Shown here piece by piece: positions 978-21,370 of a stretch of DNA of 21,370 nucleotides. Source of the stretch: Saccoglossus kowalevskii (taxonomy: Eukaryota; Hemichordata; Enteropneusta; Harrimaniidae); NCBI RefSeq assembly GCF_000003605.2, contig NW_003146281.1, positions 68,858-90,227 of the forward strand. Reading direction: 5' to 3'. The stretch's first letter is position 1. Every line of letters begins with the position of its first letter. The notes under the pieces are model-generated. The model did not search any database. It was not told the DNA's origin and saw nothing but the letters and a program-made list of their open reading frames with translations. The position numbers were made by a program, and so were the translations under genes.

Positions 978-3900
978 ATGGCTTTTCGATGGAAAAAGAC
1001 AAAATTTGCTGTCACTTGTCTTTATTTACTCATAATTATCAACTTTTTGGTGCTGTTTTATTACGTGCATTTCTCCACCTCAGAACAGAAATCAAAATTT
1101 GGTGGAAGAATTATATCAGAAGCTAAAGTCATCCTAAGAAAAGAATTCCTGAGAAAAATATACGAGGATGGAGAAATTATTGGTGCTGCGGACTTTGATA
1201 ATAATGTTGTTTTAATGTCTAGAGAATCAGAGGAGAAACAAAAAGCGGAGAAAATAATTCAAAACTATGTTATTGGTAATCATAAAGAAGAAATTTTGGC
1301 GGAAAATGAATTGTTTGAAGATGATACAGTTCCTAGAAATGTCATTGTGGCTGAAAATGAACTGAATGAAGATGATACAGTTCCTATACAGACCGATAGT
1401 CTGTCCGTGCATATTGACAATAATGCCCTCAATGGTGAAAACAGTGAAAGCCTGAATACCGAGGATAAACATTATTATGTGAAATATTTAGAAGATGAGC
1501 TGCATGATAGCGTATTAGCCATGTCGATCAGAGGAAAATTGCAGTTACCAGTTGAAGAAGTGCAAAAGAGGATCTTACCGTTGACTAATCTTCTGACCAA
1601 TCACGAAGGCGCTTGTCGTAATTTAAAAGGCATTTCATTGGTCACCTTTGTGACGTCATTGCCGGAAAATGTCGAACAAAGAGAGACTATAAGGAACACG
1701 TGGGGTAAAGTGTTAAAAGAACGCTATAATGCGGCAGTAATGTTCGTAATTGGTGTGAGTTTAGATGACGATATTGATATCAGGAGTGAACACGTTTATT
1801 CTCAAGATATTATTCAAACAAGTTTTTTAGATACCAGCAAGACCCGTATACTAAAAACAATTACTATGCTGAGATGGATTACAGAGTTCTGTGCAAATGC
1901 GAAATTTATTTTGAAAACAAACGATGCCACTTTTATACAACCCGAGATTCTTTTTTCGGAGCTTGGGCACGTGAATGATTCAAAGATAGTAATTGGAAGG
2001 GCTCTTGCTGGAATACGCCCGCAACGAGATCCCAATAAACATACTTTCGTTTCTATTGATACATGGCCTGAGTCTAGATACCCAGTATATCTGGAAAATC
2101 CAACGTATATCTTGTCTGGGGATGTTGCTCATGAACTATATGTAGTTGCCATGGAAACTCACCTATTTCCACATGATGATGTTTACCTTGGAATACTTCT
2201 TCATGGAATTGATGTGGAGCTACGTGAGTCAGCCAGGATCGACCCAAGAGGAGTAACACGGTTTATTTGTGATGTTTCTAATGCATTGTCTATAAGCTCT
2301 CTTAACAAAAACACAATAGAAACATATTGGAACACATTGGAAGTATATCCAGGAATTTGTAAAGATGATGAGACTTTTGAAGAGAAACAACTCTATGTAC
2401 AGAATCCCTACTATCAGTGTGCACAGGCTTCTCTCACTCGGAAGACAGTGCTCCTTTTTCTGATATTCAGTGATGCTGTTAACGCCCCGCAAAGATATTC
2501 CATAAGAGACACATGGGCGAACTACAATCAGATGAATCTGAATAATGCAATAACTATCTTTGTCATCAGAATGCCCAAAAATAAGATATTAAAGGCGTCA
2601 GTAGAAGTGGAGAACCATGAATTCGCAGATATTCTCGTTTTGTCAAATAATCTTGGGAAGATTGATATCATTTTATCTGCCTTACAGTGGGTTAAACGTT
2701 TCTGTTATACTGTCAGTTTTGTTGTCAGAGTAGAAGACGATGTCATATTTCTGTCAAATAATTTGTTGAAAGTTTTAGAAATGATCCCGAATAAACGACT
2801 AGCCCTTGGTGATGTACGTGAACGTGGAGAACAGTTATTCCATAGAAAGGGGAGTCAATGGGTTCTAGACAGTCATCCTAGTCCGTCCTTAAAATATATT
2901 GACTCGCATGCATATGTTATATCCTATGACCTTATCGGAGACATTTTGCACATTTCTGAAAACTACAAAATGATCAATGTCAGTGAGGAATCCTATTTTG
3001 CAAAAATATTCAATGATTTAAATATTAACCTTGTGCATCATCCTGGATTTGATAGTCGTGGTCAGCTTAGACATCTCTGTGATTTGAACCGAGCAATCAC
3101 ATCAAGATACATGTCAAGTACTGATGACATGATGTTCAAATATTGGAAAGGCATCAACGAATGGGCGCCATTGTTATGTCACAGTGTAAACTTAGGAAGA
3201 TCAATTATGATTGGTGGAGGAAGCAAAGTCAGAGAATCTAATGTACAGTTCAGTCCGCATGACTATGTTTACCTGATAAATGAACCTGAGAAGTGTTCTG
3301 TGTTTGACAGCACTCAAGAGCTTACCATATTGTTGGGGATCGTATCCAGGGCACGAGAATCACAAATTAGGCATATCATCCGTTCTACCTGGGGGAGCAA
3401 GTATCACCATGGTAACGTGAGGGTTGTTAGCGTGTTTATGATTGGCACAGAGAGTAATGGTGAAAATAAAATTGCAGAAGAATCTTATTTATATGGTGAC
3501 ATAATACAAGAGAACATCAAAGAGAACTACAAGAACTTAACTCTCAAAACGATAATGTTATTGAAGTGGGCATCTACGTATTGTACACGTGTTGATTACG
3601 TCATCAAAATCGACACAGATGTGTTCCTCAACGTTGATAATATGGTGGAACTGCTGAAATATGCCCCGAGAACGTCATTCTATCTTGGGGAGACAAAGGT
3701 TGAGACCCACCCTATTAGACAGCCACGGAGTAAGTGGTACACCCCTGTAGATGCCTGGATTGAGTCTACTTATCCCCCATATAATGATGGCCATGCCTAT
3801 GTTATGTCTATAGATGTTGTCCAAAAAGCATACCACGCATCGATGACGTCAGTTTTATTTCCTTGGGAGGATGTCTACATTGGTAACCTCCTAGCAAATT

Positions 3901-4967
3901 TTGGAGTAGCTCCTCTACCTCATAAACGTTTTGATCGGATGAATTTCTACAAGAGGGCCTGTGACTTGAGGCATTGTCTCACCTCTCATGGATTTGATCC
4001 AATGCGAATGTTTTACAGTTGGTCATATCTGGAAAAATGCAACACCGATCCCAATGGATGTATCTGCAATAATAAGCAACCAGGACACGTGACATTCAAT
4101 GACCTATCATGGAATAACAAGAAGAACATACGCCACCCGTCAGATTGTCTTCAAAGTGACAATGCTGACACATTTCTTCTCGTCGTTGTCATGACATCTT
4201 CAGTCAAATACTCCTCTCGGATGATGGCACGCCTGTCGTGGGCGATGCCTAAGTCGGTAGATGGGAAAAGGGTTCAAATCGTGTTTTTAGTGGGCTCTAC
4301 TGAAGACGTTTATCTTCAAACGTTCATATTTAATGAAAACATTGTCGAACAAGATATACTTGTAGGGAGATTCCCAGAGCATAACTCGGCAAAAGGATTT
4401 TCTGAAATGCAGCAATTTGCCATTCAGTGGTCATCTCAATGCGGATTTCCCGAATATATGATGTTTGTGACAGAGGACATGTTTGTAAACGTTGACAATG
4501 TAGTAAGATTTCTGGTCAATGATGCTGTTTCATCGCCATTGGATGCACCATCGGGGCTTGTGTATCACTGTATAGGTAGCTTCTGTAAATGTAAACAGCA
4601 TGATTATCCTGATAGTGTAAACTCTGTTAGTATTCTGTCCCACCAGACACTGAGAAAATTAGTAAGATATATGCAACACTTGAGGCAGGAACCCGCGCTG
4701 AAACAAACATACGATTTAGTTGAAATGTATCAGCTGGTGAATGTTTCTGTGAGAAGTCCGCATGCTTTTGATGTTAGAGGGCGCTATATGTACCGTCACT
4801 CAGGCATGTGCAAGTTACATCAAGTATTGGTGGCGTCACACTTCACTACCCACCAGTCCGTTGTTGCTCAGTCATTCCTAGATGAGTCTTACTACGCATG
4901 CGCAAACTATTTACGCGACCAAGAAAAAGCCATTGGCAGCAGTGTTTGCACGGCTCATTTGAATTAA
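978..4967 (+). CDS. Four-domain GT31 (beta-1,3-galactosyltransferase-like) type II membrane protein, single exon
   Basis: The 1329-residue product has a short basic N-terminus, one signal-anchor helix (about residues 10-31) and a charged stem to about 210, the plan of a Golgi type II glycosyltransferase. Four divergent family-31 domains follow: about 216-435, 488-702, 780-998 and 1062-1280. In domain order the IRxTWG-like motifs are RETIRNTWG (235-243), RYSIRDTW (506-513), HIIRSTWG (799-806) and a decayed RMMARLSW (1081-1088). The metal-binding DxD site reads NDA (315-317), EDD (586-588), DTD (879-881) and TED (1165-1167). Domain 3 also keeps the NLTLKT block, a W-x(5)-YP-like block and WEDVYIGN (963-970), so it is the best candidate for activity. 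Domains 1-3 each end in a Cys-Asp tail (ICDV, LCDL, ACDL) and domain 4 in a related MCKL. Known GT31 enzymes add Gal, GlcNAc or GalNAc in beta-1,3 linkage; which sugar is used here is not determinable. There is no intron and no internal stop. Confidence 0.9.
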   Translation: MAFRWKKTKFAVTCLYLLIIINFLVLFYYVHFSTSEQKSKFGGRIISEAKVILRKEFLRKIYEDGEIIGAADFDNNVVLMSRESEEKQKAEKIIQNYVIGNHKEEILAENELFEDDTVPRNVIVAENELNEDDTVPIQTDSLSVHIDNNALNGENSESLNTEDKHYYVKYLEDELHDSVLAMSIRGKLQLPVEEVQKRILPLTNLLTNHEGACRNLKGISLVTFVTSLPENVEQRETIRNTWGKVLKERYNAAVMFVIGVSLDDDIDIRSEHVYSQDIIQTSFLDTSKTRILKTITMLRWITEFCANAKFILKTNDATFIQPEILFSELGHVNDSKIVIGRALAGIRPQRDPNKHTFVSIDTWPESRYPVYLENPTYILSGDVAHELYVVAMETHLFPHDDVYLGILLHGIDVELRESARIDPRGVTRFICDVSNALSISSLNKNTIETYWNTLEVYPGICKDDETFEEKQLYVQNPYYQCAQASLTRKTVLLFLIFSDAVNAPQRYSIRDTWANYNQMNLNNAITIFVIRMPKNKILKASVEVENHEFADILVLSNNLGKIDIILSALQWVKRFCYTVSFVVRVEDDVIFLSNNLLKVLEMIPNKRLALGDVRERGEQLFHRKGSQWVLDSHPSPSLKYIDSHAYVISYDLIGDILHISENYKMINVSEESYFAKIFNDLNINLVHHPGFDSRGQLRHLCDLNRAITSRYMSSTDDMMFKYWKGINEWAPLLCHSVNLGRSIMIGGGSKVRESNVQFSPHDYVYLINEPEKCSVFDSTQELTILLGIVSRARESQIRHIIRSTWGSKYHHGNVRVVSVFMIGTESNGENKIAEESYLYGDIIQENIKENYKNLTLKTIMLLKWASTYCTRVDYVIKIDTDVFLNVDNMVELLKYAPRTSFYLGETKVETHPIRQPRSKWYTPVDAWIESTYPPYNDGHAYVMSIDVVQKAYHASMTSVLFPWEDVYIGNLLANFGVAPLPHKRFDRMNFYKRACDLRHCLTSHGFDPMRMFYSWSYLEKCNTDPNGCICNNKQPGHVTFNDLSWNNKKNIRHPSDCLQSDNADTFLLVVVMTSSVKYSSRMMARLSWAMPKSVDGKRVQIVFLVGSTEDVYLQTFIFNENIVEQDILVGRFPEHNSAKGFSEMQQFAIQWSSQCGFPEYMMFVTEDMFVNVDNVVRFLVNDAVSSPLDAPSGLVYHCIGSFCKCKQHDYPDSVNSVSILSHQTLRKLVRYMQHLRQEPALKQTYDLVEMYQLVNVSVRSPHAFDVRGRYMYRHSGMCKLHQVLVASHFTTHQSVVAQSFLDESYYACANYLRDQEKAIGSSVCTAHLN
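1299..1385 (+). repeat. Duplicated acidic peptide in the stem of the glycosyltransferase
   Basis: Residues 108-119 and 125-136 are near-identical copies of AENEL(F/N)EDDTVP, separated by five residues. At DNA level the two 36-bp copies (1299-1334 and 1350-1385) are offset by 51 bp. The duplication lies in the stem, not in a catalytic domain, and so most likely lengthens a flexible acidic linker. Confidence 0.8.
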
Positions 4968-5372
4968 AGATTCAATCGACTGTTTAACCATATATTCTAT
5001 TTTTTGTATTACTGATAGAATGTGTTATTATATAAATATTAAAAACATTTTGTCGTCACACAGCGTGGTGCTAGGTAGGGAAAATAAAGACGTATACAAC
5101 GCGTTCTGGAAAGAACATTGTCTGTCAACACAAAATTCGAACGCCCTGCTCGAGAACTACCGTTCTATTATACAATTAGTATTCAATACTAAAGTAGTGG
5201 TTTATTGACAAATTATCTTCCGTTGTTATTCTTATATATATAATTATACGATCGATGATGATTTAATATGTAAACGTTGCCGTGCTATACTGAAATAAAC
5301 TTACTTGTAATGACGTATATTTGATTATGTTTACGTAAGATCGGCGCTGTATAAACTATAAATACAAAAACT
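4968..5372 (+). terminator. 3' untranslated region and candidate poly(A) signals of the glycosyltransferase gene
   Basis: After the TAA stop the sequence turns AT-rich. Two exact AATAAA hexamers occur, at 5083-5088 and 5294-5299, and either could direct 3' end formation. The open frame at 5020-5208 shows no domain and is best read as untranslated sequence. Confidence 0.5.
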
Positions 5373-5529
5373 TTAAAGCGGGAGGGTCGGCACCTGTGCA
5401 CGCGCGGGAATTGAGTCCCAGGCCGCGACGATAACAACACACGCTGCAAACGCAAAGGCTCACGGGTAGACGCTTGTATGTAAACAATGACACGCTGGCG
5501 CATGCGCAGGTGACGACACCCCGCTTTAA
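5373..5529 (+). mobile_element. TTAA-flanked inverted-repeat element (MITE-like), copy 1
   Basis: The 157-bp element starts TTAAAGCGGGAGGGTCG and ends CCCCGCTTTAA, so its ends are inverted and both abut TTAA. TTAA may be the target duplication or part of the repeat. The interior (AACAACACACGCT, ACGCAAAGGCTCA, GGGTAGACGC) is shared with copies at 19171-19316 and, inverted, at about 13350-13481. It has no coding capacity and fits a non-autonomous DNA transposon. TTAA targets are typical of piggyBac elements, but that assignment is only suggested. Confidence 0.75.
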
Positions 5530-7013: not shown

Positions 7014-10000
7014 ATGAATTCGACTTATTTTATTTGCGTTGCTATGGCAGTGGTACTACTAAATCAGCCAATGGTTTATACAGGTAAGAACTAGTCTAGT
7101 AGTTTTACGAAGCAAAATTATTTGTTTTGTTCGTACATTTAACAAACTCCATCAACAAATGTACATCAACAAATGCCTCGTCTAAGTATTCTTATTTCAT
7201 AACAGTAATTGAAGTACAATTTTGTTTAAATTAGTGAGATACATAAAAAAAAAACACAAGCGCGCCAGCTATCATAATAATTGAGTTGGTTTAGAAAACA
7301 TAACATTTACCTAGCACTTAAATATTTCCCAAATGTGAAAGAAAAACCACAATTAACTAAAATTAAAAAATCAGTCATTTTGTTGTTATCTCGAAATTTA
7401 CAACCAGCAAAAATAGCGGCCATTTTGAAAAGTCAAGGTATTTTAGCTTAGCTTGTAAATTGAGTTTTCTCACAATGATGACGGAATGACGTCACGGAAT
7501 GTAGAATTTGCTTATTCTGTATAAATTACCATTTGTGATTTACCGTCCTAACTGGGTTATTTGGTTTGAAGAGGCAATATGGATAACTTTTAATATATTT
7601 TGAACATTTTATTCATTATATTGCATCTTAAGATTACGATTGAGGTATGATTTTCCCATAAAAAACCTTGTTTTAACAGCAAACATCGCAGTATTCTCTA
7701 ATCTAATACGCACGCGTCACGTATTCACCAGTACGTACATTTAATTAAAAACTCATTTGTTCACTATTCCATCGAGCTGATACTGATATGTTTGCAACAG
7801 ACACATTATGTTACGATAAAGAATACCCTAATATTGTTTTTCAAAATGCAATATCAGACAACATTTTTTTTTACAAATGCTTAAAAATACTTCTTCGCAT
7901 TGCCGCTTTATATTTTGACAACACATATTACATAGCCCTGTTGTATTCATTGTCACAGTGCTGCGTGATCGGTGATAAATAATAAAAGTGAAAACATAAA
8001 ATGTCTCACAAAAAATATTTGAGACGATTAAATAGTACACCGAAATGAGATGAAATTGAAGTGTTTCCCAGTGACATTATTGTTTTATTGTTTTCAAATT
8101 ACCATTTCCTTCAATTCAGATATGTCTACAGAAAGCCTTGTTTCCTGTCAAGATGGCTGGGCACAGAGATCACTCAACTGTTACCAAGTGAATGAAAACA
8201 CACTGTCATGGAGTGACGCACGCAGTGCATGCCGGGAAATCACTGGAGCAGACCTTGTTTCATTTGATTCATTGGAGGAAAGAAAGTGAGAACAAGTATA
8301 CCATGTCTCTTTGTGGAAACAATCTAACCAGTCGAAATACCAATTATGAATTATAGTTGTCCCATAGCCCCTGCAATAAATCGACAGTGGAGTGACTCTG
8401 GGGATATGCATGTATTCTAACATTCGCCGTAGTAGATTAGTGATTCAAAAAAAATGCGGTTTGTGCGGTTATCACTCTGACTCGCGTACAATAAATGGGA
8501 CAAGAAAAGACAATAGTCACAATCAATGTCGCCTGAAAAAAATGTTTGGATTATCGAATGAGCGCATATACCAACGAAATAGAAAACGATGATCTTGTGT
8601 TTATTCCATTATTTTGAAATTAAAATAGATTTATTTCCTGTTTTCTATTGCAGTATTGTATCCGAGCTTATAATGCCTCCATTTCCCAATGTCTATCTCT
8701 GGATTGGAGTTACCGGTAATTACCAGGGAGACTTGATCTATAACTGGGTTACTGGTCACATGGTACCTGGCAATATACAAGGGTGGGAACAAGGACAGCC
8801 GGACAACGCAGCAGGTGAGCATGCGCAGAATTCCTATCTGCTTTTATCAATAATATATATATATATATATATTATGGTAGAGGCCAATACATTTCATCGA
8901 CATTTAATTCTGTTTTACTAAGATTTCAATGTAAAACAAATTTAGGTCATGATAGTTTTTTTTTTATTAAATACTGAATATAAATTTAGCAATATTTTAT
9001 CAATTTTATGGTGACTTGTTTTGTCACTAGTTCAGGATTATTTGATGAATGTATTTGATTTCGCTTCAAAAACAGATCGGTCTGAATCTTCGTTGATTAA
9101 TATGATGTCAAATTGTACATATAATTTCAGGTAATGAACATTGTGTGGATATATTAGCTGGAGACGCCAAAGCTACTGGTATATGGAGAGACAGGTCATG
9201 TGACACGCAAGCAGGATACGTATGTAAATACAGAAGAGGTATGTCATATCCGATGCCGTGACGTCACTGGTTCGACAGACGCAATAATTAATCAATAAGT
9301 GATAATCTAAGTATTAAGGCGCGCTGGTCGTCGCGCTACGCATGTGCGACATTTGTGTTGATAAACATTGATTTTCCCACAATCCAGTGCGCTCTTCAAA
9401 TGGAAATCACAAGTATAAGGTTTGACCTGGGCGCGACTTGCACTGAATACCGCCGGTGACACTTTCGATACCTTCCAATCACCTAAATTAATTTTACATG
9501 TCACTGTGGTTACTGCACTCACAATGAGATGCAACCAGTTTACAACAAGCGCCCTCTAACGACAACGTGCTTATGTGACTTCACTGTGTGTAAGCGATGA
9601 CGTCCAATTTGTTTGAACTGTAGCCAAGCGTCAATCACAATATTTTGGATATGTTAGATTACAAATGATAAGCGATTTTTCAGCTAAGAAGAGTTCCATA
9701 TTAAAACGGCATTGCTTACGTACATCTACTGTGACGTCACAGAAGCGGTTCGGCGGAAGAGGACTTATAAATTACCTAATTAAACTTGGAAACGCCTTAG
9801 TTTGTACTCGTTGATCTGCGCAACAGTCAAAATCGCCATCTTTGTTTATATGAGACCCATATATTTCGCGCATGCGTGGCGCGACGACTACCTAGTTTTT
9901 ATTTCCATCAAAGTTATTTTTGTCAACTAATTATGTTCAATTACATTTGCAATGATAACGAGAGATAAGTCAACTTTGGAGTGGTTATTTCAGCACCAAA

Positions 10001-13000
10001 ACGTATGTTACTGTCATCTTGTTCAATTCAAGAGAATTTTCAAAACAAGTAACAATTGGTTTTTTTTTCAGATCACATTTTACAATCTACACAGCGCCCT
10101 CCCACGACTAATATAGGGCAAACCACAATGGCACAATTCACTACGGCTGTTGAAATCGCAACGTCACAACCACCGCCCACATCGTTAACATCGCCATCAT
10201 CAACGGCAACAACAAAAACGACAACAACGAAACTGACAACATCAGAATCAATGAGTAAGTGGGCTTAGTGATCTCGGTCGAAATGATTTATGAGTTGTGT
10301 TATCTTTCACCAAATATTAATTTGTTTAAAGATATTGATCAATACCTGAAACCAATAAGAAAGTATGTCAATTTTGTTCAAAATCAACAAAGCATAAAAA
10401 TATTTTCTCAAAATGTTGACTGAAACAATATGGCGCTAAATGGATAAGTGTTGGATCAATCTAGGAAGTCTTACAATATTAAGAAACTGAAAACATTAAA
10501 TAACAATATATATATATATATTATTAAACCGTTATTAATTTTTGAAAGTATCTAATTATTAATAATTTGAATCTGAATTGATCGCATTTATGAATGAGAT
10601 TTAGCATACTCCTATTTGCTATTGTCTATTTAGCTACAATACAGTATACCACACAAACTACAATAATTGTAGAATCGTCAACAAAGAAACAAACAACACC
10701 TGTCCAAAAAACAACGTTACTTTCGACATTGACTACTCCAATGGAGCTGATGACGTCACCTTCAAATACAATGCCACAAACGTCCACGGGTGAGTAAAAG
10801 TTTTGAGTATCTGGGTAATTAAAATGATTTCAATGGTCTAGTGTAGTTGTGGCCACTGATTGTGATATACACGGGTACGCTAGGTTTTGGACGAGAAACG
10901 TCTTAGTAATAACATTTAATTGTGATTTTGTCGAACTAATACTTTAGAAGTACGATACGGATTCAAAATAAAAGTACTGCCAGCTACCTTTAAATAACAG
11001 CGTTTGTGTTGTATTATTAATTTGAAGAAAGTTGCAGTGACTGTTACGACCGACTTTGTTAGATATATGGCCGATACTTAGACTTTGATAAAACGTTCTT
11101 TATTCTCAATATTTTGTCACTGATTTGCAGACAAATATAATCAATGATAAGTTATTATTACATATTAATTATTAAAGAAATTAAATTCAGGTGTCTACTA
11201 CTTAACGCATCTTGAAACAATTTTAGTCGTGTGACTTCTTTTCATGTCATGCAATGAATAACATGTAATACTCAACTGTTGCTCTTTTTCAAACTCAGAA
11301 AAAGTAGAGGAAACGACCGTCCCGAGAATAGGCTCTGTTAAGATGACGTCATCGACTGGTAAGGCATCCGGTTGTAAAATGTCCCAGATTTTTTGTTAAA
11401 ATGTATGAAAAACTTGTACCATCCCCGTTATCATACTACAATCACGTCTTTATACCAACTCTTCGAATTGTGAGAGTACGTGACAACTCTAATAATTAAG
11501 AAAATTAAAAAATATATATTAATACATTACATCCACAGTCTGTAACAATAATTGTGATGATTTAAGCTAAAATTGTGTTTTTGTTCAAATATTTTCAACC
11601 AGGCTATATATTAACATATATTTACTAATTAAGTAGAAAATTTAGTTTTCTACCATTTATTTGTATTTAACCTTTAAGTTACCAATACATGGTGTTTTAA
11701 TTATTCTTGTGATTTATTCATTCACAACCAGTAACACTATCACGTGATGTACTGTCGACTACGACCAAGGGCACGACAGGTAAACCATTTCATCCTAATT
11801 TAATGAATGTCCCAACCCATAAGTGTTATGATTTGACACTATTTTGTAGTGAAGTTGGCGATTGTTCCCAGTTTGTATATGCACCTATAAAATATGCGGT
11901 ACTGACTATGATGTCACAATTGTCGTCAGCATTTAATAAGATGCAACCAGTTTACAGTAAGCGCCCTCTAACGACAACGTGCTTTTGTGACGCCACTGTG
12001 TGTAAGCGATTTGTTTGATCTGTAACCAAGCGTCAAATACAAATACTGTTTTTGGATATGTTATATTACAAATGATGAACGACTTCTCAAGCAAGCATAT
12101 TTCCATATTAAAACGGCATTGCTTATGTACAACTACGTCATTATTACGTCACAGAATCGGTTCGGCGGAAGAGGACTTATTGGAATAGTGTAAAATACTT
12201 ATATTCCTATCACCTGCCTTGTAAAATCTATTCAAAATGTCGTCTCTAAATTCCCATTCAATATTTACTGCTTGACTGTTTTATTAGATGCGGAACTTCT
12301 ATTTTGTGAAGACGATGTCTACAATGGTGTCCATTGGCCGGCGACTTTGTCATCACAGTCAGCAACAGTTTCGTGCCCTAGCAACCAATCAGGTAAGATA
12401 TCTAACTCCGCGTATGGTCGAAAAATATAGTATATTTTGGTCCATGACCTCTCTGTCGTCAGTTTGCTGTTTCGTGTATGGAATATTTTCATATCGTTCT
12501 GAACTTCTCGCCTAACTATGTCGTTGAAATCCCTGTATACACTGTGTGTTGATAAACTTGTGCCAAGGCGAACATGAAACAAACAACTCACTTTTTGCTG
12601 TTGAGTAATATTTTTCACAAACTTTGGAATATACCAAATAGAACAGAATAGGAAAACAAACATTAAACAAACAAACATTTACCGATAAGATAACAGCTAC
12701 AACTATTGGTGAATTGAGTACCTTCTAAAAACAATCATGTGTAAACTATCGCTAAACGTGGTAACCTGGTGTGTTACAATATATTATTCATGTTCCGGGC
12801 CATAGTTCGATATTATGTACACCACACTGGTCTTTGTCGTGAGAGTGAGCTGAATAAATTCTGAGAATGGAGAACAAATAAATCATCTATATATTAAAAA
12901 TATTATTATTTTGTGCTCTTGCGCAGGTCACGTGTCCAGATATTGTGATTCTGACAATGGGACAGCCCGTTGGAGTTTACCAGACGAGTCAGACTGTCTA

Positions 13001-16000
13001 CATTTGGAAGGGATCTTAGATGAGGTGGGAAACTAGTCAAGTGTATGCGTTGAGGGCGCTGTAGCAATTCCATTCGATGCTTTGTCACCATTTGTCGCAC
13101 CTGACCAAAACCCTTATGTCTGAAGTCACTTCGTACCAGATAATTACTTCGCACCACTTGTAAACTAAAGTTAATATCTAAGCGAGAAGGTTATTTTTCA
13201 TTAAGAAGAATATGTTGTTCATTAATAATATAGACTTGAAAATAAATAAGTTGAAATGGCCCTGGGTATTGCAACCACGAGGTACAACGTGGTCATGTGG
13301 TGCGAAATGACCGTGTGGTACAAAGTGACTTGAGACGAAATTTTGACTTTACGAAGTCAGATGGCCATAGCGTGTTTAAAAACAAGCGTCTACCCCGTGA
13401 GACAGCGTTTTAGCGTGTGTTGTTATCGTCGCTTGGAACTCAATTCCTGCGCGTGCGCAGGTGATGACCCTCCCGCTTTAAGCATAACTGATTTGTCAAG
13501 AGTGATCTTCAGATACGTCAAGTATGAGCTATTTTTCGTAATATTTCTAATACTGTTAGTTCGATTACAATCTTGCGCTTTAAGTTAACGTATTTACAGA
13601 CATCGTGTCTAAAAATAGATTAGCCCAGTTCTGGAAAGTATATATACTTACCGTATGTTAAGAATACGTAAAGGTTATTTTAGTATCATTTGTGTTGACA
13701 GGAACAACTACTATATCAGCTGACTTTGTTCACAATCATTGCTACAAGTCTGACGTCATTCTTTGCTGTTGTTATAATCGTGGCATTCCCAATTCTCAGG
13801 TAATAGAGTTAAAGATGCAATATTGATGACAAAAAATGTAATTCTAAATACTGTTGTTGAATTGTGACGATTTGTCATGAAGTTATCTAATGCCCATGTG
13901 CTCTGGTTGTTTTGGTATCTGCAATAACAATTACTGCACATGCGTAGTAGGGTTTTCAATTTCCAACGAACGAATATTTGACAGTGCGATACAAAAGCTA
14001 CAGTTTTCAGTTTACGATAAATCATAAACCATTTTGTTCTCAACGAGCGAGGATATTCAAAAATACATAAATCATTTTATAGATTAATTGGACATAAATC
14101 GCAATATTTACTCTGCCATTCTTTGGTGTACAGTACATGCTCACACAATGTTGCTATATTGTTGTGTTTATGTCAACGTATTATGGATTCCCGCATAAAC
14201 TGTGAGTGTATGCTGCGATGCGTTGCACCACGTTACATTGCGATGGGTTGGATTATATGCAATGACCTTCTACTATGAGATCCATATCCCCAAACACTTA
14301 GTTCTATCTCAGACTAGTAATACAATACAATAGTCCGAGGTTCTATACTACACACACAAACACAAACACCAACATATTATAAAGTTGCAGACTTGAATTA
14401 ATTTCTATATGCATACTTGGTACGCGTGACCCAGTACGCGTACCACGTGGTGTTGTGTGATTAATTGGTACGCGTGATCCGGTACGTGTACCACGTGACG
14501 AAGTGTGCTTACTTGGTACGCGTGATCCGGTACGTGTACTACCACGCGGTGGTGTGTACTTACTTTGAACGCGTGTATTTGCATGTTTCAAAATAAATTG
14601 TGAGATTGACAATACTCTCTTTTTTATTGCCTGACTGGTTACTGATACAGGTTATTGGGTTCCGCCAGCGTTGAAGTCGAATTCTCGTTAGCCGTCTCCA
14701 TCTTACTCATCAATCTGACGCTCTTGATTGGATATCAGAGAGCACAAAATAAGGTAAAACAAAAGAAAATCCACAAAGTGTCGCAATTGGGCGCTCTTCA
14801 TATTGCGCTGCGTTAATGCCCCCGTTTGTCTTATAGATTAGCTGTTTTAGTACACCGGGAATCAAATTTGTTACAGAAAATTCAATTAATAACAGCTTCC
14901 GTTTAATATTTGAATGGAATAGTGTTATTCACCACTGAGGTACACTAAGGGTCAGCGACCAGTTGCCATAGACAGTATCAACACACCTCGGTGATATTCA
15001 GAGAGCTTCATTAAAAATGGAATGTCCGATTGAAATGAAACTTCGAATAAGTGTTATTGAATAACAATCAAATCGATGTAAACATTATTTGCCCGCTTTC
15101 AAATAGGTTGAATAGAATAACTCGAAAACTTGAACTTGCTGTCAAATTTCTGCAATCCGGGTGTGTACGGGTTATGACGCATATACCACTTTAGTCTATC
15201 GATTCTGAGGTTTGGTCGTACATTTTCAAAAAGTCGTTTTAGTCGCGCGCGCCACGTACGTCGTGTGGTGAGCGTTCTGCCCGTATCCACGTAGTTGAAG
15301 TGCGCCCTCATAGTCCCTGCTAACTATAATCTTTATTTTCGTCACAGTTGGTGTGTACAATCGTAGCTGTTTTTCTACATTATTTGGTGACTACGCAGTT
15401 TCATTGGCTTACCATCCACGCATATAATACGTACGTCATGGTGACGACGTCGCGGCCATATTTGAGAAGACGCATTATTACGTACAGAGTGATTGGGTGG
15501 GGTAAGTGTCGATATCACTCCCTTCTGCATTAGTATGTACTCTTACTGTAGATTGGTTGCAGACTACGCGAAATTACATGTGATACGCATGCTCGACCAA
15601 ATTGACATGCATGCTCCGCCAACGTGACATGCATGCTCCGCCAACGTGACATGCATGCTCCGCCAACCCTGTAATGTATAAAGTCGTCTTAACAATTCTG
15701 AAGTTACAACAAGTGCGTTTTTAATCATAAGTGCCTTCTGTATTTGGAATTAATCATCTAGAGAGGAGGGCTAAACAAAATACATGAGTCAGAGAAATAC
15801 TAACTATGAATTGTTCGTACTCAGAGTAATAATCATAGAATAATACCAAGTATTATGTTCTATCGCAGTGTGTTCTGCCGTAGTACCTATTATAAGTGCT
15901 GGCATATACTACGATGATTACGGCGATGCATTAAGGTCGGTGTTATTCATTTGATTACTAAATGCCATAAGAGAAAATCAAAACGAATAAACCGCGATTA

Positions 16001-19000
16001 AAGTAGTAATATATGAACCCTAAACACACGGTGATAAAAGTCTGGAATTATACACTGAAATTAATGAATAGTACACATGAGCCCACATTAGCATAATTAC
16101 CCCCTCGAAAACGTGATGGCATTTCTAGTCGGCGCGGTAAAATAGATCAGTCATGAACGACAGCTTTTACAAATTTGCCCTTGAAAGCAATTCAATGTTA
16201 CATAATAAAATTGTGACGGATATGCACTTTTAGGCATAATGGTTGCAAAGATGCAAAATATTAAGTCAAAGGTCGTCTTCATGGGGTTCGTATATGGTCT
16301 AAACTCCCAAAACGGGCTACACTGAAATAGATGTATACAAACCTAGTTACCGAATCATACTTTCATCCCTGGCAGGTGTTTTCCATCGGGTATTGTGACG
16401 TACATTATGCTGGCTTCATTTGGACTACTTGTTTTGGTAAGTAATACGTAATATCATTTGTAATAAGTAATGAATGCTAAATATTGTCGTGTCATGATTA
16501 TATCTATAATTATTGGTATGGAATTATACTCATTATGTTTGTGCTTGTAAATATTCGTAGTGAAACAATGAACTGATTGAATACAAATGTTGTTTTCTTT
16601 AAAACATAATATATGTATCAATAAATCGTTAATAAACAAATAAATAAATGTAATATGATGAAACTAGATGTTTCAAACTGTTTGAATATTTTAGGTGGAT
16701 TTGTTTTTCTTGGGTTATGCTACAAAACAGTTCTCATTGTCGAATGACGAGCCCCGTGGACCTGTGACAAAAGCAAGGTACGCTAAATTGAGATATTAAA
16801 GCGTGTTCCTCTTAGTTACAATGCCATCGAGTGACATTCAATATCCCTCTAGCCCGACATATAACGAACGAACCTCACATACTAACCTCACATACTAACC
16901 TCACATACTAACCTCACATACTAACCTCACATACTAACATCACATACTAACCTCACATACTAACCTCACATACTAACCTCACATACGAACCTCATATACT
17001 AACCTCACATACAAAGCTCACATGATAGTTTTAAAGTCGAGGCATATTTTAATGTTTATCAGAACTGGGTAATCAAAGTTTCTTCGCCCCCGTACGCACC
17101 TTTTCTCGTTTGTCGCGTTACCGGAAGTGGATTTTTTTAACAGTGCGTACTATGTATACAGTATTTTTTACTACGAGATGGTCACAATGATTTGAAAATT
17201 GGGTGGTCCGAAAATGGGTGTGATCTGTACTTCCAACGACTTCCATTTTGGCGTACCACACAAGTCCAGTTCAGTTTTTCTGTAAATATAATTGTTATGG
17301 GAACCACCATTGTGTAATATTTGATATTTCCAATATGTTTTTCTATTTCAGAGATAAATTAAAAGTCAATCTGTTATTACTGGTACTATTTACTATGGAG
17401 TGGACGTTTGGAATATTATCTTTTACTCTACTACAATATCCAGTGCAATATCTATTCGCTATGGCCATGCTGTGTATTGTACGTTTTTATTACTAAATCA
17501 TTCACAATTAAAGAGATAATAGGATAATTTAAAATATTTATGATAATGTTCACGATAATTTTGCTTGATACTGTATCTTGGTTAAACAATGACATCATTA
17601 GAAAAGTGTTATTATGCGTCCGCTTAAAATTAAATGTAATTAATTCATTACTTCATAGAACAAATACTGCTAAATTTGCTGCCAAAACAAAGTTGTCATC
17701 TCACGATAATCATACACCGGTGTTTCTATCATCATCATAGAGTATCAAACACGGGAATTTGTTATCTACATTATTTAGTTTGATATGCAAGTCGTTTTGG
17801 TCTCGCCAGTACAGTATGCGTAAATGAAAATACTAGTATCAGCGTAAATTATGCACATAACGCCCTACTATTTCAATATCGCCCGGGTGGTTATTTATGA
17901 TACTGATATGGGCTAGCCGAAATTAGCTTTAATAGGAAAGTAGCAACACATTTGTTTGTTCACTGCATGAAAACTTTAATAAACGAGATAATTCTATAAT
18001 TCATATTCAGGGACCTTGTATGATTGTACCGTTTCTCACATCAGACGAAGTTCGAGAGAAGGTGGCGAATTGGATGATGGATAAAAAAGAAACTACTAGG
18101 AACGAGGTAATATGAACCCAGATAACAACCACAATACCAACACTACCTAACTCTTCAGCGCATTGTGTTCTTTAGTATAAAACACAAATTATCCCCGCAT
18201 ATGAATGTCAGTAACTCCTAAACTAATAAAAATCTTCACCCAGTAAAGCATTAAGTATTTATATATATTTCTGATTTTCAGAATGAGTTAACAGAAACAT
18301 TTAAAGCAATATTCAACGATTCGACACATGGTGAAATGACGCGACATAATACGCGACTCGCTGCATTTAACAGCAGACGTGTAGCGTACCAGGAAACGTC
18401 ATTCTCGCTGAATGGTAAACGTAGAGGGCGATGTAAAAAATTAAATATGGGGGTTCAAGGAGAGAAGAAGAGATCCCAAACCTGTAGATCTAATCACGTG
18501 GTACATCGTGATATGTGCGTGAGTATTATTTCTATTTATTTATAATTAATATTCATAATCATGTAAACAACGACGACAATTGTGTTTCTATCAATTTTTA
18601 TATGGACTCTATGGATATAAAATACGATTGAAAAAACGTCAAAGATTGGAAGTGTTTAATTATTCTTGCGTGTTTCATATATTGATATTTTAATTTAATA
18701 ACTATTTCATGTGTCATTTTATTAATGAGAATTATAATATTATGACATGAACGCATATTAAATGTTAGTTTACACGTCTAATGAGAGACAATGTGTACAA
18801 CCTTACTAGCGATATTGTATATTGGTAATGGATTCCAGCACGTTGGAAACAAATAGACAAAATTAGCGAAAGTTATTTTATATTTTAATGCAAGGATGTA
18901 ATTTGATGACGTTATTTCTAGGAACGTGGTGGACCTCTTTTTGTCAAACGAAATTTTGGAAAGGTACAACCTCCAGCGGTGAGAGTAAGTCGTCAAATTA

Positions 19001-20044
19001 TTAATAATAACTTAAAGGGGCACCTTCCAGTTAAGATTAATTTTACAACAAGTTTGCTTTCTGGGTTAAAATAACAATGGATAACAAAAGATAGATTAAC
19101 ATTGTAAACAACATAAACAATAGTGTCCCATGATTCTTTGGTGCAATCCATGGGATTGAGCGGTTCCCCTTTAAAGCGGGAGGGTCGTCAATTGAGTCCC
19201 AAGCGACGATAACAACACACGCTAAAACGCAAAGGCTCATGGGTAGACGCTCGTTTGTAAAGAATTACACGCTATGACCATCTGACGCATGCGCAGCTGA
19301 CGACTCCCCGCTTTAACAAAAGAGTGCACAGTGACCTGTTGGCAAGAACTAGTTGTTCGCTGCTGTTGTTTTTATATATGCATGTATGGTTCTAGCCAAT
19401 AAGATCACGAGCTTGTGCTGATCAGTGAGCGACATTTGTCATCAGACATGCGCAGAATGGTTGGCAAAGACGTCACAGTACACACGTTTAAATAAGTGAT
19501 ACTTGTAATATTACTTCTCCTCCAATCTCTCTGTGTGAATTTACTTTATCCAAAATATTGTATATTAATTATTTTCATAACATTGCACACATTGCAGGTA
19601 CGAAGTGTAAAAAAGATATCGCCTATGACGTCAGAGTCCGTCAATGTACAAACGGATGAACTGACCTGTACGCACCAGCATAATAAAGAACATCCACCAA
19701 AGATAAAAACAAAAGCAAGAGACAACATGCCTATTGATGGCGCTTTCTTGAAAGAAAAAAGAAAGGCTTCTTTAAACAATAAAAGTGGCAACCATAGCCC
19801 ACAGAATAAAACTTGCGCAGATTCAGAAAGTTTACCTGGAAACTCCCTCAAAGTTAAATACCCGACACCTGCTGATGCGGAATTATTAAAGGAAGTGACG
19901 TCACGCTTAACAAGAACAATGACATGCCCGTTGTACCAAGTAATGACTCCAAGAAGTATCTCTGAAATGTCACATGACTCGGGATTTTCGACTAGTTCAA
20001 CCAAGAAACGAGAAATGCTTCAAATTGATATGCATTCCATTTAA
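7014..20044 (+). CDS. Lectin-mucin-HormR seven-helix receptor (class B/adhesion-like GPCR without GAIN), 21 exons
   Basis: Assembled exons: 7014-7083, 8120-8285, 8654-8814, 9131-9238, 10072-10254, 10634-10789, 11299-11358, 11732-11779, 12288-12392, 12927-13024, 13702-13799, 14651-14753, 15348-15501, 15869-15935, 16376-16436, 16695-16777, 17352-17478, 18011-18106, 18282-18518, 18922-18984, 19598-20044. All introns are GT-AG and all junction phases agree, giving 2691 nt (896 residues plus stop). Domain order is signal peptide (1-23), C-type lectin (33-164), Thr/Ser-rich stalk (169-317), four-Cys HormR (324-376), seven helices (about 391-627) and cytoplasmic tail (about 628-896). It should be a surface receptor binding a carbohydrate-bearing ligand and signalling through G proteins, as known class B receptors do. 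The HormR exon joins the helix-1 exon directly, with no GAIN/GPS region. The weakest splice site is the donor of exon 10 (GTGGGA). The first exon is uncertain; see the alternative start at 8050. Confidence 0.82.
8050..8121 (+). other. Alternative first coding segment with its own signal-peptide-like sequence
   Basis: An ATG at 8050 opens a frame that runs without a break into the first lectin exon. Its first 23 residues have a basic start (MKLK) and a long hydrophobic core, as in a signal peptide. The TTCAG ending at 8119 would instead be a 3' splice site receiving the exon at 7014-7083, and this gives the same Asp-Met junction in the same frame. Either the gene has alternative first exons or one reading is fortuitous, because T-rich acceptor tracts naturally translate into hydrophobic residues. 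Confidence 0.35.
8120..9238 (+). CDS. C-type lectin domain module (exons 2-4)
   Basis: Three exons (8120-8285, 8654-8814, 9131-9238) encode a long-form C-type lectin domain, residues 33-164 of the model. Six cysteines are placed as expected (33, 44, 61, 137, 156, 164). The WIG core motif is at 95-97 and the W-x-x-GQPDN segment at 123-130. The calcium-site motif is QPD (127-129), which in this family usually predicts galactose or GalNAc binding, unlike the mannose-type EPN. The second site, canonically WND, is WRD (151-153), keeping W and D. Binding is therefore plausible but untested. The module is bounded by phase-1 introns on both sides, the usual mark of a shuffled domain. Confidence 0.9.
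8852..8874. repeat. (AT)n microsatellite
   Basis: This is a pure alternating AT run of about 22 bp in the intron after exon 3. A shorter similar run lies at about 10506-10521. Confidence 0.9.
9318..9893. mobile_element. Inverted-repeat DNA element in intron 4
   Basis: The left end near 9318-9350 reads GCTGGTCGTCGCGCTACGC then ATGTGCGA. The right end (9866-9893), in reverse complement, reads GGTAGTCGTCGCGCCACGC then ATGCGCGA, giving about 27-bp imperfect terminal repeats. The element is about 575 bp, has no transposase frame, and contains the dispersed repeat copy at 9526-9768. It looks like a non-autonomous cut-and-paste transposon. No clear target duplication was seen. Confidence 0.6.
9526..9768 (+). 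repeat. Dispersed 243-bp repeat, copy A
   Basis: It shares most of its length with 11938-12180 in the same orientation. Shared blocks include GATGCAACCAGTTTAC, GCGCCCTCTAACGACAACGT, CCATATTAAAACGGCATTGC and GGTTCGGCGGAAGAGGACTT. There is no coding capacity. It may be the interior of the surrounding element or a separate insertion. Confidence 0.85.
10072..11779 (+). CDS. Thr/Ser-rich mucin-like stalk module (exons 5-8)
   Basis: Four small exons (10072-10254, 10634-10789, 11299-11358, 11732-11779) encode 149 residues, model positions 169-317, dominated by Thr, Ser and Pro (for example TATTKTTTTKLTTSES). This composition predicts dense O-linked glycosylation and an extended stalk lifting the lectin away from the membrane. 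Every exon is phase 1 at both ends, so any combination can be skipped without a frameshift and stalk length could vary by splicing. Low complexity makes exon calls less certain here than in the domains, but the acceptor and donor sites are good and the phases agree. Confidence 0.75.
11938..12180 (+). repeat. Dispersed 243-bp repeat, copy B
   Basis: Direct-orientation relative of 9526-9768, lying in the intron before the HormR exons. The GTCGTC-type terminal repeats that surround copy A are not seen here, so the two copies may have different histories. Confidence 0.85.
12288..13024 (+). CDS. HormR (hormone receptor, HRM) domain module (exons 9-10)
   Basis: Exons 12288-12392 and 12927-13024 encode model residues 318-385. 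The signature is clear: Cys324, then GVHWPAT (331-337), SCP (346-348), RYC (357-359) and W368, ending SLPDESDC (369-376). There are four cysteines, as in adhesion-type HormR domains, rather than the six typical of secretin-type peptide hormone receptors. Only about ten residues separate the last cysteine from the helix-1 exon. The exon ends with donor GTGGGA, which is weak, but reading through reaches a TAG after three codons. In the same intron, no sequence resembling the GPS cleavage motif (HLT or HLS with flanking cysteines) was found. Confidence 0.85.
13119..13337. repeat. Fold-back inverted repeat in the HormR to helix-1 intron
   Basis: The left arm at about 13119-13160 (GAAGTCACTTCGTACCA, then CTTCGCACCAC) is matched in reverse complement by 13294-13337 (AAGTCACTTTGTACCAC, then TTTCGCACCAC). 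The arms are about 42 bp with a spacer near 130 bp. No protein frame explains it. It is either a small fold-back transposon or structured intron RNA. Confidence 0.65.
13350..13481 (-). mobile_element. TTAA inverted-repeat element (MITE-like), copy 2, inverted and partly degraded
   Basis: Reverse complement of the elements at 5373-5529 and 19171-19316. The end at 13463-13481 (GATGACCCTCCCGCTTTAA) is intact. The other end keeps only the subterminal GTCAGATGGCCATAGCGTGT and has lost the terminal repeat. The open frame over it (13343-13588) is transposon sequence, not an exon. Confidence 0.7.
13702..18106 (+). CDS. Seven-transmembrane class B receptor core (exons 11-18)
   Basis: Helix 1 is in 13702-13799, helix 2 in 14651-14753, helix 3 in 15348-15501, helix 4 in 15869-15935, helix 5 in 16376-16436 plus 16695-16777, helix 6 and the start of 7 in 17352-17478, and the rest of 7 in 18011-18106. 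Family marks include the helix-3 start LVCTIVAVFLHYLV, whose Cys can pair with the loop-2 Cys in ALRCFPSG, and IGW before helix 4. Others are MEWTFGILSF in helix 6, where WxFG matches the conserved class B block, and TSDEVREKV after helix 7. The usual WMxxE of helix 3 is altered to WLTIH. Gene structure (several introns within the helices) is typical of this class and unlike intronless rhodopsin-type receptors. Confidence 0.88.
14415..14576. repeat. 48-bp minisatellite with palindromic core
   Basis: About 3.3 units start at 14419, 14467 and 14515 with GGTACGCGTGA, then a fourth partial unit after a 3-bp insertion. Each unit holds GGTACGCG and near-complementary CGTGTACC or CGCGTACC, so every copy can fold on itself. 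The unit length is a multiple of three, which explains the repetitive open frame on the other strand. Confidence 0.85.
15581..15668. repeat. 22-bp minisatellite, four copies
   Basis: Units of TGACATGCATGCTCCGCCAACG start at 15581 (divergent), 15603, 15625 and 15647. The last three are nearly identical, implying recent expansion. It lies in the intron between the helix-3 and helix-4 exons. Confidence 0.9.
16871..17026 (+). repeat. 13-bp minisatellite, twelve copies, containing TACTAAC
   Basis: Units of AACCTCACATACT repeat twelve times; units 6, 9, 10, 11 and 12 carry substitutions. Junctions between units create the exact heptamer TACTAAC nine times. The array lies in the intron between exons 16 and 17, about 330 bp before the acceptor, and has no AG dinucleotide until its last unit. 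Confidence 0.92.
18282..20044 (+). CDS. Cytoplasmic tail of the receptor (exons 19-21)
   Basis: Exons 18282-18518, 18922-18984 and 19598-20044 encode model residues 649-896 plus the stop. All three are phase 0 at their internal junctions, so exons 19 or 20 could be skipped in frame. The tail is polar and rich in Lys, Ser and Thr, with basic clusters such as GKRRGRCKK and KEKRK. Near its end lies HDSGFSTSSTKKR, resembling the phospho-degron DSGxxS with Thr in the last position. No known domain is recognised. A long Ser/Thr-rich tail is usual for receptors regulated by phosphorylation and arrestins, but that is inference here. Confidence 0.78.
19171..19316 (+). mobile_element. TTAA-flanked inverted-repeat element (MITE-like), copy 3
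   Basis: The 146-bp element begins TTAAAGCGGGAGGGTCGTCA and ends TGACGACTCCCCGCTTTAA, the clearest terminal repeats of the three copies (about 19 bp). The interior matches 5373-5529, apart from about 20 bp absent here near the left end. It lies in the last intron of the receptor gene. Confidence 0.8.
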
Positions 20045-20255: not shown

Positions 20256-21370
20256 CCACTTTAGAATGTCAAAGATCATATGGCGGCAGTCGTCTTGCCG
20301 CGTCCTGTTCGATATGGGACTCATAGCGACATATACAACGCGTGTAAAATACATTGTTTATTTACGACGACCACCGCGCTTCATATATCACAATACTTCT
20401 ACTTTAGAATGTCAAAGGTCATCTCTCAAAATATTTCCACTTTAGTATGTCAAAGGTCATCTATCACAATACTTCCACTTCAGAATGTGAAAGGTTATCT
20501 AACACAATATTTCTGCTTTAGTATGTCAAAGGTCATCTATCACAATAATTCCACTTTAGACTGTTAAAGGTTATCTATCACAATACTTCCACTTTAGAAT
20601 GTCAAAGGTCATCTATCACAATACTGCCACTTTAGAATGTCAAAGGTCATCTATCACAATACTGCCACTTTAGAATGTCAAAGGATATCTATCGCAATAC
20701 TGCCACTTTAGAATGTCAAAGGTCATCTATCACAATACATCCACTTTAGAATGTCAAAGGTTATCTATCACAATACTGCCACTTTAGAATGTCAAAGGTT
20801 ATCTATCACAATACTGCCACTTTAGAATGCCAAATGATATATATCAAAATACTTCCACTTTAGAATGTCAAAGGTCATCTATCACAATATTGCCACTTTA
20901 GAATGTCGAAGGTCATCTATCACAATACTGCCACTTTAGAATGTCAAAAGATATCTATCACAATACTGCCACTTTAGAATGTCAAAGGTCATCTATCACA
21001 ATACATCCACTTTAGAATGTCAAAGGTTATCTATCACAATACTGTCACTTTAGAATGTCAAAGGTCATCTATCACAATACATCCACTTTAGAATGTCAAA
21101 GGTTATCTATCACAATACTGCCACTTTAGAGTGTCAAAGGTTATCTATCACAATACTGCCACTTTGGAATGCCAAAGGTTATCTATCAAAATACTGCCAC
21201 TTTAGAATATCAAAGGTCTTCTATCACAATACTGCCACTTTAGAATGCCAAAGGTTATCTATCAAAATACTTCCACTTTAGAATGTCAAAGGTCATCTAT
21301 CACAATATTGCCACTTTAGAATGTCGAAGGTCATCTATCACAATACTGCCACTTTAGAATGTCAAAAGAT
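20256..21370. repeat. 38-bp satellite array, continuing past the window
   Basis: The monomer is CCACTTTAGAATGTCAAAGG followed by TCATCTATCACAATACTG (38 bp). From 20399 there are 25 complete monomers and a partial one cut by the window end. One earlier monomer (20256-20398) is split by an insertion. Marked variants recur: the series ATTG-ending, TCGAAGG, AAAAGAT starts at 20855 and again at 21273, exactly 11 monomers (418 bp) later. Open frames across the array are by-products of the repeat. Confidence 0.95.
20282..20380. mobile_element. 99-bp insertion inside a satellite monomer, with TCATAT duplication
   Basis: TCATAT occurs directly before (20276-20281) and after (20381-20386). Dropping the insert and one copy leaves exactly one 38-bp monomer, which is strong evidence for a target duplication. 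The ends are imperfectly inverted: GGCGGCAGTCGTC against the reverse complement GCGCGGTGGTCGTC. Ends and subterminal ATATGGGACTCATA resemble the right side of the element at 9318-9893, suggesting a short deletion derivative of the same family. Confidence 0.75.

Follow-up and report, generated by a model that had tools for sequence, protein, structure and literature searches.

Adhesion GPCRs of the HormR-GAIN-7TM type (ADGRL, ADGRB and CELSR, and the S. kowalevskii genes on contigs C593 and C4305) resemble the Saccoglossus kowalevskii gene described here in their four-cysteine HormR, their adhesion-like 7TM core and an adhesive N-terminal module, and the exon phases of the C593 gene are like its own. 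However, our gene is devoid of GAIN/GPS, and its HormR and 7TM matches are separated by 13 residues instead of the approximately 280-330 published for such receptors in animals, choanoflagellates and filastereans (PMC12716839). In secretin (class B1) receptors, HormR stands directly before 7TM, GAIN is missing and the TM1 exon phases are as in our gene, which differs from them by a HormR without the extra Cys, by the retained adhesion Trp of TM6, by the added lectin and mucin stalk, and by a core placed outside the secretin clade. An adhesion 7TM with no known GAIN is also found in ADGRA1 (GPR123), which has that trait in common with our gene and, unlike it, is not known to carry HormR or a lectin ectodomain. 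Amphioxus adhesion GPCRs with C-type lectin domains have been reported (PMC2246102), and a class B subfamily named 'GPRX' appears with Lectin_C and DUF3497 in a published table (PMC8687355); compared at the level of domain content, both are like our gene in the fusion of a C-type lectin to a class B 7TM. Among sponge adhesion GPCRs, 12 of 40 are reported to have no GPS; the authors describe the N-terminus of some as short and caution that models may be incomplete (PMC4302439). GPS is reported in 21 of 30 such receptors of the sea squirt Ciona (PMC2396169). These GPS-less receptors are similar to ours in having an adhesion 7TM without a detected GPS and, unlike it, show no lectin-HormR ectodomain in the available portions of the two papers (PMC4302439, PMC2396169). 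Loss of GPS as such is not new, and C-type lectins in adhesion GPCRs have already been reported. No description of the order lectin, stalk, HormR and 7TM without GAIN was found in the titles and abstract openings of the literature searched.

The window, i.e. the whole stretch of 21,370 nucleotides that was analysed, spans positions 68858-90227 of a 515-kb contig (C3684) in an assembly of 572 Mb and 4830 contigs, which was also searched. A gene of 21 exons and 20 introns, rebuilt by eye and by reading frame, occupies positions 7014-20044 of its forward strand, on which all exons given below lie. The predicted spliced product of 896 aa consists, from the N- to the C-terminus, of a putative signal peptide, a C-type lectin, a Thr-rich stalk, HormR, 7TM and a long tail. 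All 20 introns are GT-AG, all phases are consistent, and there is one terminal stop and no internal one. Pfam at E<=1 gave three matches for this protein, each above cut-off, namely Lectin_C (4.5e-16, aa 51-165), HRM (1.2e-7, aa 322-376) and 7tm_2 (6.6e-21, aa 390-602), and no GAIN, GPS or any further family. Splice sites were scored with weight matrices built from the gene's own sites, each left out in turn; 17 of the 20 donors were among the top 5% of all GTs of the window and only 8 of the 20 acceptors among the top 5% of its AGs, the weakest being the donors of exons 14, 17 and 19 and the acceptors of exons 8, 10, 11 and 21. The exon 17 donor is backed by the presence in C593 of an exon of identical 127 nt. 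Lectin, HormR and 7TM domains linked by 20 frame-consistent introns are not a product of chance. When the HormR-7TM protein was compared with the assembly at E<=0.001, 17 matches were obtained, comprising 10 of the gene's own exons and 7 places elsewhere (24-34% identity), hence no close paralog at this threshold. We take the gene to be intact and single-copy, and to encode a class B receptor. Its domain order upholds the initial annotation, in which an uncommon architecture of lectin, mucin stalk, HormR and 7TM without GAIN/GPS had been proposed. Viral contigs yielded 47 pattern matches and no relatives, and Rfam gave no match.

Two other features of the window lie outside the gene. An intronless ORF (978-4967, forward strand; 1329 aa from the first ATG) begins with an N-terminal hydrophobic stretch and contains four tandem Galactosyl_T (GT31) matches, with DxD-like motifs read by eye as NDA, EDD, DTD and TED; judging by these motifs, perhaps only some of the domains are active. 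Downstream of the gene, a 38-bp tandem repeat of approximately 26 copies extends over 20381-21366.

Exon 1 (7014-7083) carries the start codon and a putative signal peptide (MNSTYFICVAMAVVLLNQPMVYT) recognized by hydropathy only. The C-type lectin domain is encoded by exons 2-4 (8120-8285, 8654-8814, 9131-9238), a block flanked by phase-1 introns, and the Thr/Ser/Pro-rich stalk by exons 5-8 (10072-10254, 10634-10789, 11299-11358, 11732-11779), each of phase 1-1. Phase-1 introns thus bound the lectin block and all four stalk exons; introns placed in this way are typically a sign of extracellular modules that have been shuffled. The stalk (aa 169-317, 149 residues) is composed in 52% of Thr, Ser and Pro, with 32% Thr and no Cys. 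A complete Ca2+/sugar site of a C-type lectin includes EPN or QPD, plus WND. The predicted lectin domain matches C-type lectins and has QPD with the next Glu, which presumably points to a galactose-type site, and WRD in place of WND, a substitution that weakens the case for sugar binding by the lectin head.

HormR, with its four cysteines, is encoded by exons 9 and 10 (12288-12392 and 12927-13024, phases 1-1 and 1-0), and the hydropathy peaks on its C-terminal side form seven stretches according to our grouping. Exon 11 (13702-13799, phase 0 to 2) contains a short linker (EQLLYQ) and TM1. It is followed by exon 12 (14651-14753) with TM2, where VEFSL stands against HxNL or its variant in most references, and by exon 13 (15348-15501) with TM3 and the beginning of TM4, where WLTIHA stands against a VEG-like motif in most references. 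TM4 to ECL2 is encoded by exon 14 (15869-15935, 67 nt), the ECL2 Cys and the first half of TM5 by exon 15 (16376-16436, 61 nt), the second half of TM5 and ICL3 by exon 16 (16695-16777), and TM6 (EWTFG) with the first half of TM7 by exon 17 (17352-17478, 127 nt); exons 14, 15 and 17 are equal in length to their counterparts in C593. Exon 18 (18011-18106) completes TM7 and starts the cytoplasmic tail, the long remainder of which is provided by exons 19-21 (18282-18518, 18922-18984, 19598-20044; stop at 20042-20044).

In an adhesion GPCR, GAIN/GPS would be expected at the position of intron 10 (13025-13701, 677 nt), and none was found there. Phase 0 was read both at the end of exon 10 (13024) and at the start of exon 11 (13702); the rebuilt exon chain thus agrees with the in-frame joining of the HormR exon to the helix-1 exon that had been proposed. 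The last Cys of HormR is residue 376, the end of the HRM match, the 7tm_2 match starts at residue 390 and the first hydropathy peak is at 394, so the gap is short, as had been claimed, but amounts to 13-17 residues rather than about ten. The donor of exon 10 (GAGgtggga) has the top score among GTs from 12932 to the stop codon located 9 nt past it, and exon 11 could not be extended upstream because an in-frame TGA is placed 3 nt ahead of it. Intron 10 is the only place that GAIN exons could occupy, and with 677 nt it is too short for a GAIN of 320 aa, which requires approximately 960 nt. Among 25 candidate open phase-0 cassettes of at least 30 nt in this intron, none had an acceptor above 5 together with a donor above 4, a cut set by us, below which several true sites of the gene fall when left out. 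The best-placed candidate (13361-13501) scored 4.3 and 3.1 for acceptor and donor, respectively. A six-frame Pfam search (E<=10) of the segment 12927-13801 revealed no family but is a weak test, since it also missed the pieces of HormR and TM1 contained there; likewise, stop-masked frame scans of the locus gave no GAIN/GPS and are a weak test, as 7tm_2 also escaped them. The strings HLS and HLT in intron 10 (13089 and 13098) were rejected as GPS since they are without preceding C-x-C cysteines, and so was a pattern match at 12914 (CSCAGHVS), which spans the acceptor of exon 10 and is followed by HormR. An in-frame alternative acceptor, an AG ending at 13719, i.e. 18 nt downstream and with a score near that of the site at 13701, would remove EQLLYQ (13702-13719) and shorten the linker to TM1.

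Unlike the frame scans of the locus, a search of the whole assembly with the GPS profile is a useful test for GPS. It gave at least 40 matches at E<=0.01, among the 63 best candidates scored, and caught even weakly matching GPS exons in related genes, namely those of C593 (5.2e-4) and C3325:60843 (0.0017); none of the matches lies on the 515-kb contig bearing our gene. A GPS sequence pattern, which is another weak test, found three (L034, L035, L036) of the five adhesion loci that later had a GPS-model match, missing L032 and L033, and missed also the C593 locus L027. The absence of GAIN/GPS, as claimed originally, therefore holds for the Pfam search of the protein, for the length of intron 10 and for the GPS matches on the contig. 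Long, apparently intronless 7tm_2 frames, with 765-822 aa read, were noticed on contigs C644, C3372 and C221 (L001, L003 and L004); these contigs have no GPS match at E<=0.01 either, and we would guess that the frames are Methuselah-like.

Such an absence could also arise if a misassembly had joined two separate places, for example at a repeat in intron 10, the true gene having GAIN/GPS exons. A MITE-like element of approximately 150 bp with the ends TTTAAAGCGGG and CCCGCTTTAA occurs in the window at about 5372-5529 (+), 13347-13484 (-) and 19170-19312 (+), limits set by eye, and the second of these copies is inside intron 10. Its stretch 13405-13445 (41 bp) is 98% complementary to 19190-19230, and some of the GPS matches of the assembly are on contigs without a 7tm_2 match, both of which would suit a misjoin. 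Nevertheless, intron 10 contains no run of N, both of its sides are coherent in splice sites, phases and domain order, and at E<=0.001 the only matches of high identity were the exons of the locus itself, so no second copy with the missing part was found. We regard a misjoin as unlikely. Another dispersed repeat, with copies 85-92% alike at 9523-9729 and 11935-12136, is present in introns of the gene.

A separate question is whether the receptor belongs with the adhesion or the secretin family. In the HormR of secretin receptors, an extra Cys and an extra disulfide keep the helix that binds the hormone in place, and adhesion HormRs have neither (PMC3776922). The HormR of our gene has four Cys, none of them before the conserved Trp, and is thus of the adhesion type. 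The Cys of the CW motif is absent from it and from both adhesion HormRs compared in the genome, and present in all five secretin-type ones read there, a label that we gave from TM motifs, three of the five being read in the first exon only and two being included in the tree. Lacking the extra disulfide, this HormR probably does not act as a binding site for a peptide hormone. Searching PDB with HormR gave six chains, all weak, of which five were adhesion receptors (E 0.008-0.36) and one an antibody fragment (0.8); with the 7TM core, ADGRD1 (4.6e-12) and ADGRL3 (4.8e-12) were found far ahead of the best secretin receptor, CRFR2 (0.0048).

A tree was computed from 19 cores. Its five secretin receptors, of which PDB supplied three and the same genome two, formed a 100/100 clade that did not include our gene. 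The latter was paired with C593 (86/91), both on long branches. Seven of the nine same-genome cores in the tree were assembled from exon matches, some without short exons or TM1. When C593 was removed, our gene was placed weakly (74/93) with ADGRG/Mth-like rows. Raw core identity to our gene is 28.5% for C3325, 27.5% for C4305 and 26.7% for C410, against 23.8% for C593, which is, with weak support, its nearest relative among the sampled cores. The AU test did not reject a grouping of our gene with the secretins in any of three trees (p 0.218, 0.19 and 0.274), each of which has the secretins in a 100/100 clade without it, and the p value for a group of our gene, C593 and the secretins was 0.401. 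The comparison of the core with the adhesion and secretin families, advised in the initial annotation, thus places the gene outside the secretin clade (100/100), but the placement is weak and the AU values are 0.19-0.274. The same holds for the independent GAIN loss suggested there. Judged by core and HormR, it seems to be separate from that of the secretin family; the adhesion-type HormR and 7TM and the position outside the 100/100 clade speak for this, and the long branch and the AU test, which does not reject the secretins, against it.

The AU result would also be compatible with a lineage between adhesion and secretin receptors, in which GAIN had already been lost and a peptide-binding HormR not yet gained, since neither our gene with the secretins (p 0.19) nor the two with C593 (p 0.401) are rejected. 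Moreover, the secretin-type gene C1169, when read with one of its two possible donors, seems to share the joining of HormR-b straight to a TM1 exon of phase-0 start, and a 7TM region of eight exons, in which TM4, TM5 and TM7 are each interrupted, is described for most deuterostome secretin genes (PMC1764030). However, the intron in TM4 seems common in the genome and not specific for secretins, as inferred from match ends, the exon lengths are nearer to adhesion-type C593 than to secretin-type C1169 (TM4 exon of 67 versus 61 nt), and the secretins form their 100/100 clade without our gene. We find such an intermediate lineage very unlikely. The eight-exon layout of 7TM was rejected as a secretin-specific feature, as many class B matches in the genome, where 76 exon matches to class B cores were obtained, end at the same point of TM4, and the exon lengths closer to C593 oppose it too.

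The HormR of C593 (L027, L039) is split between two exons; the gene also has an exon with GPS and those of the 7TM, and 7.4 kb separate its HormR-b and TM1 exons. Pfam gave only HRM and GPS there, other GAIN exons not being recognized singly, and no lectin was found in the three forward frames of 8 kb upstream, which is a weak test. The exon lengths of C593 and of our gene are 120/105 for HormR-a, 110/98 for HormR-b, 110/98 for TM1, 100/103 for TM2, 163/154 for TM3, 67/67 for TM4, 61/61 for TM5a, 86/83 for TM5b and 127/127 for TM6/7. Their phases agree in all nine, seven of which were read from open frames, while those of TM1 and TM5b were required by the search and do not count as independent support. 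Both the HormR-b and the GPS exon of C593 end in phase 0, and the phase-0 end of the latter means that the next exon must start in phase 0. Phase 0 is the starting phase of the TM1 exon in all six other class B genes inspected in the genome (C1169, C2503, C3325, C410, C4305 and C3976). It is likewise the end phase of HormR-b in C2503 and C593, and also in C1169 if one of the two possible donors there is used. With HormR-b ending and TM1 starting in phase 0, loss of the GAIN block is frame-neutral in general.

The explanation that we favor, and consider rather probable, is that the gene encodes a class B receptor derived from adhesion receptors, its GAIN/GPS block having been lost by one deletion in a C593-like ancestor. 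The ancestral gene would have had the order HormR-GPS-7TM, resembling C593, and a single intron-to-intron deletion between phase-0 introns would have removed everything between HormR and TM1, leaving HormR directly ahead of TM1 with the frame unchanged. We infer both the deletion route and the nature of the ancestor. The secretin-like layout of the gene is then best read as convergence. A canonical GPS has HL(S/T) at the cleavage residues. The GPS exon of C593 (L027, 7179-7299) reads CQCSHPGIFAV, with HPG at this site; judged from these letters, its autoproteolysis is doubtful and it may not self-cleave. Autoproteolysis may thus have been dispensable before the GAIN block was lost.

Core motifs were aligned against nine PDB cores; conservation figures for class B core positions are given in PMC8584163. 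In exons 12 and 13 of our gene, H of the TM2 HxNL motif is changed to E, and E of the TM3 VEG motif to H. The H2.50/E3.50 pair is present in seven of the nine references and the reciprocal E/H pair in none of them; this swap suggests that a polar contact is kept, and hence constraint. W3.50, W6.53 and the TM3-ECL2 cysteines are retained, and P4.50 is changed to S, N5.50 to D and the CW of ECL2 to CF. A decaying or signalling-dead receptor, which, if kept, would serve as a lectin anchor or decoy, might be proposed on account of the loss of P4.50, N5.50, the ECL2 CW and the usual H2.50/E3.50 pair, and of the very long branch. This is at odds with 896 intact codons in 21 exons, with the preserved ECL2-TM3 cysteines, W3.50 and W6.53, and with the constraint suggested by the reciprocal change of H2.50/E3.50 to E/H, and we hold it to be quite unlikely. 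Coupling of the receptor to G proteins is plausible, not assured, from these residues.

If the receptor does signal, it would do so without autoproteolysis, without a tethered agonist and without shedding a fragment. At the far end of the stalk, the lectin would bind a glycan or glycoprotein ligand, most likely the driver of signalling, and clustering, pull or displacement of the ectodomain might be passed through HormR and the short linker (CLHLEGILDEEQLLYQ) to TM1. Gating by a lectin ligand is the least certain part of our proposal.

The prevailing view is that adhesion GPCRs gave rise to the secretin hormone receptors (PMC8584163). Such a descent requires that GAIN and the built-in agonist be lost without killing the receptor. 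It is possible, and we put it forward tentatively, that the gene described here is a natural replicate of this transition, in which the whole GAIN cassette was lost in one phase-neutral deletion to give a GAIN-free, lectin-headed receptor. A second, separate case, if true, would show how GAIN loss can happen, and the exon phases permit it in one step. Should our reading of the receptor be true, it would also allow activation of an adhesion-type 7TM without a tethered agonist to be tested directly.
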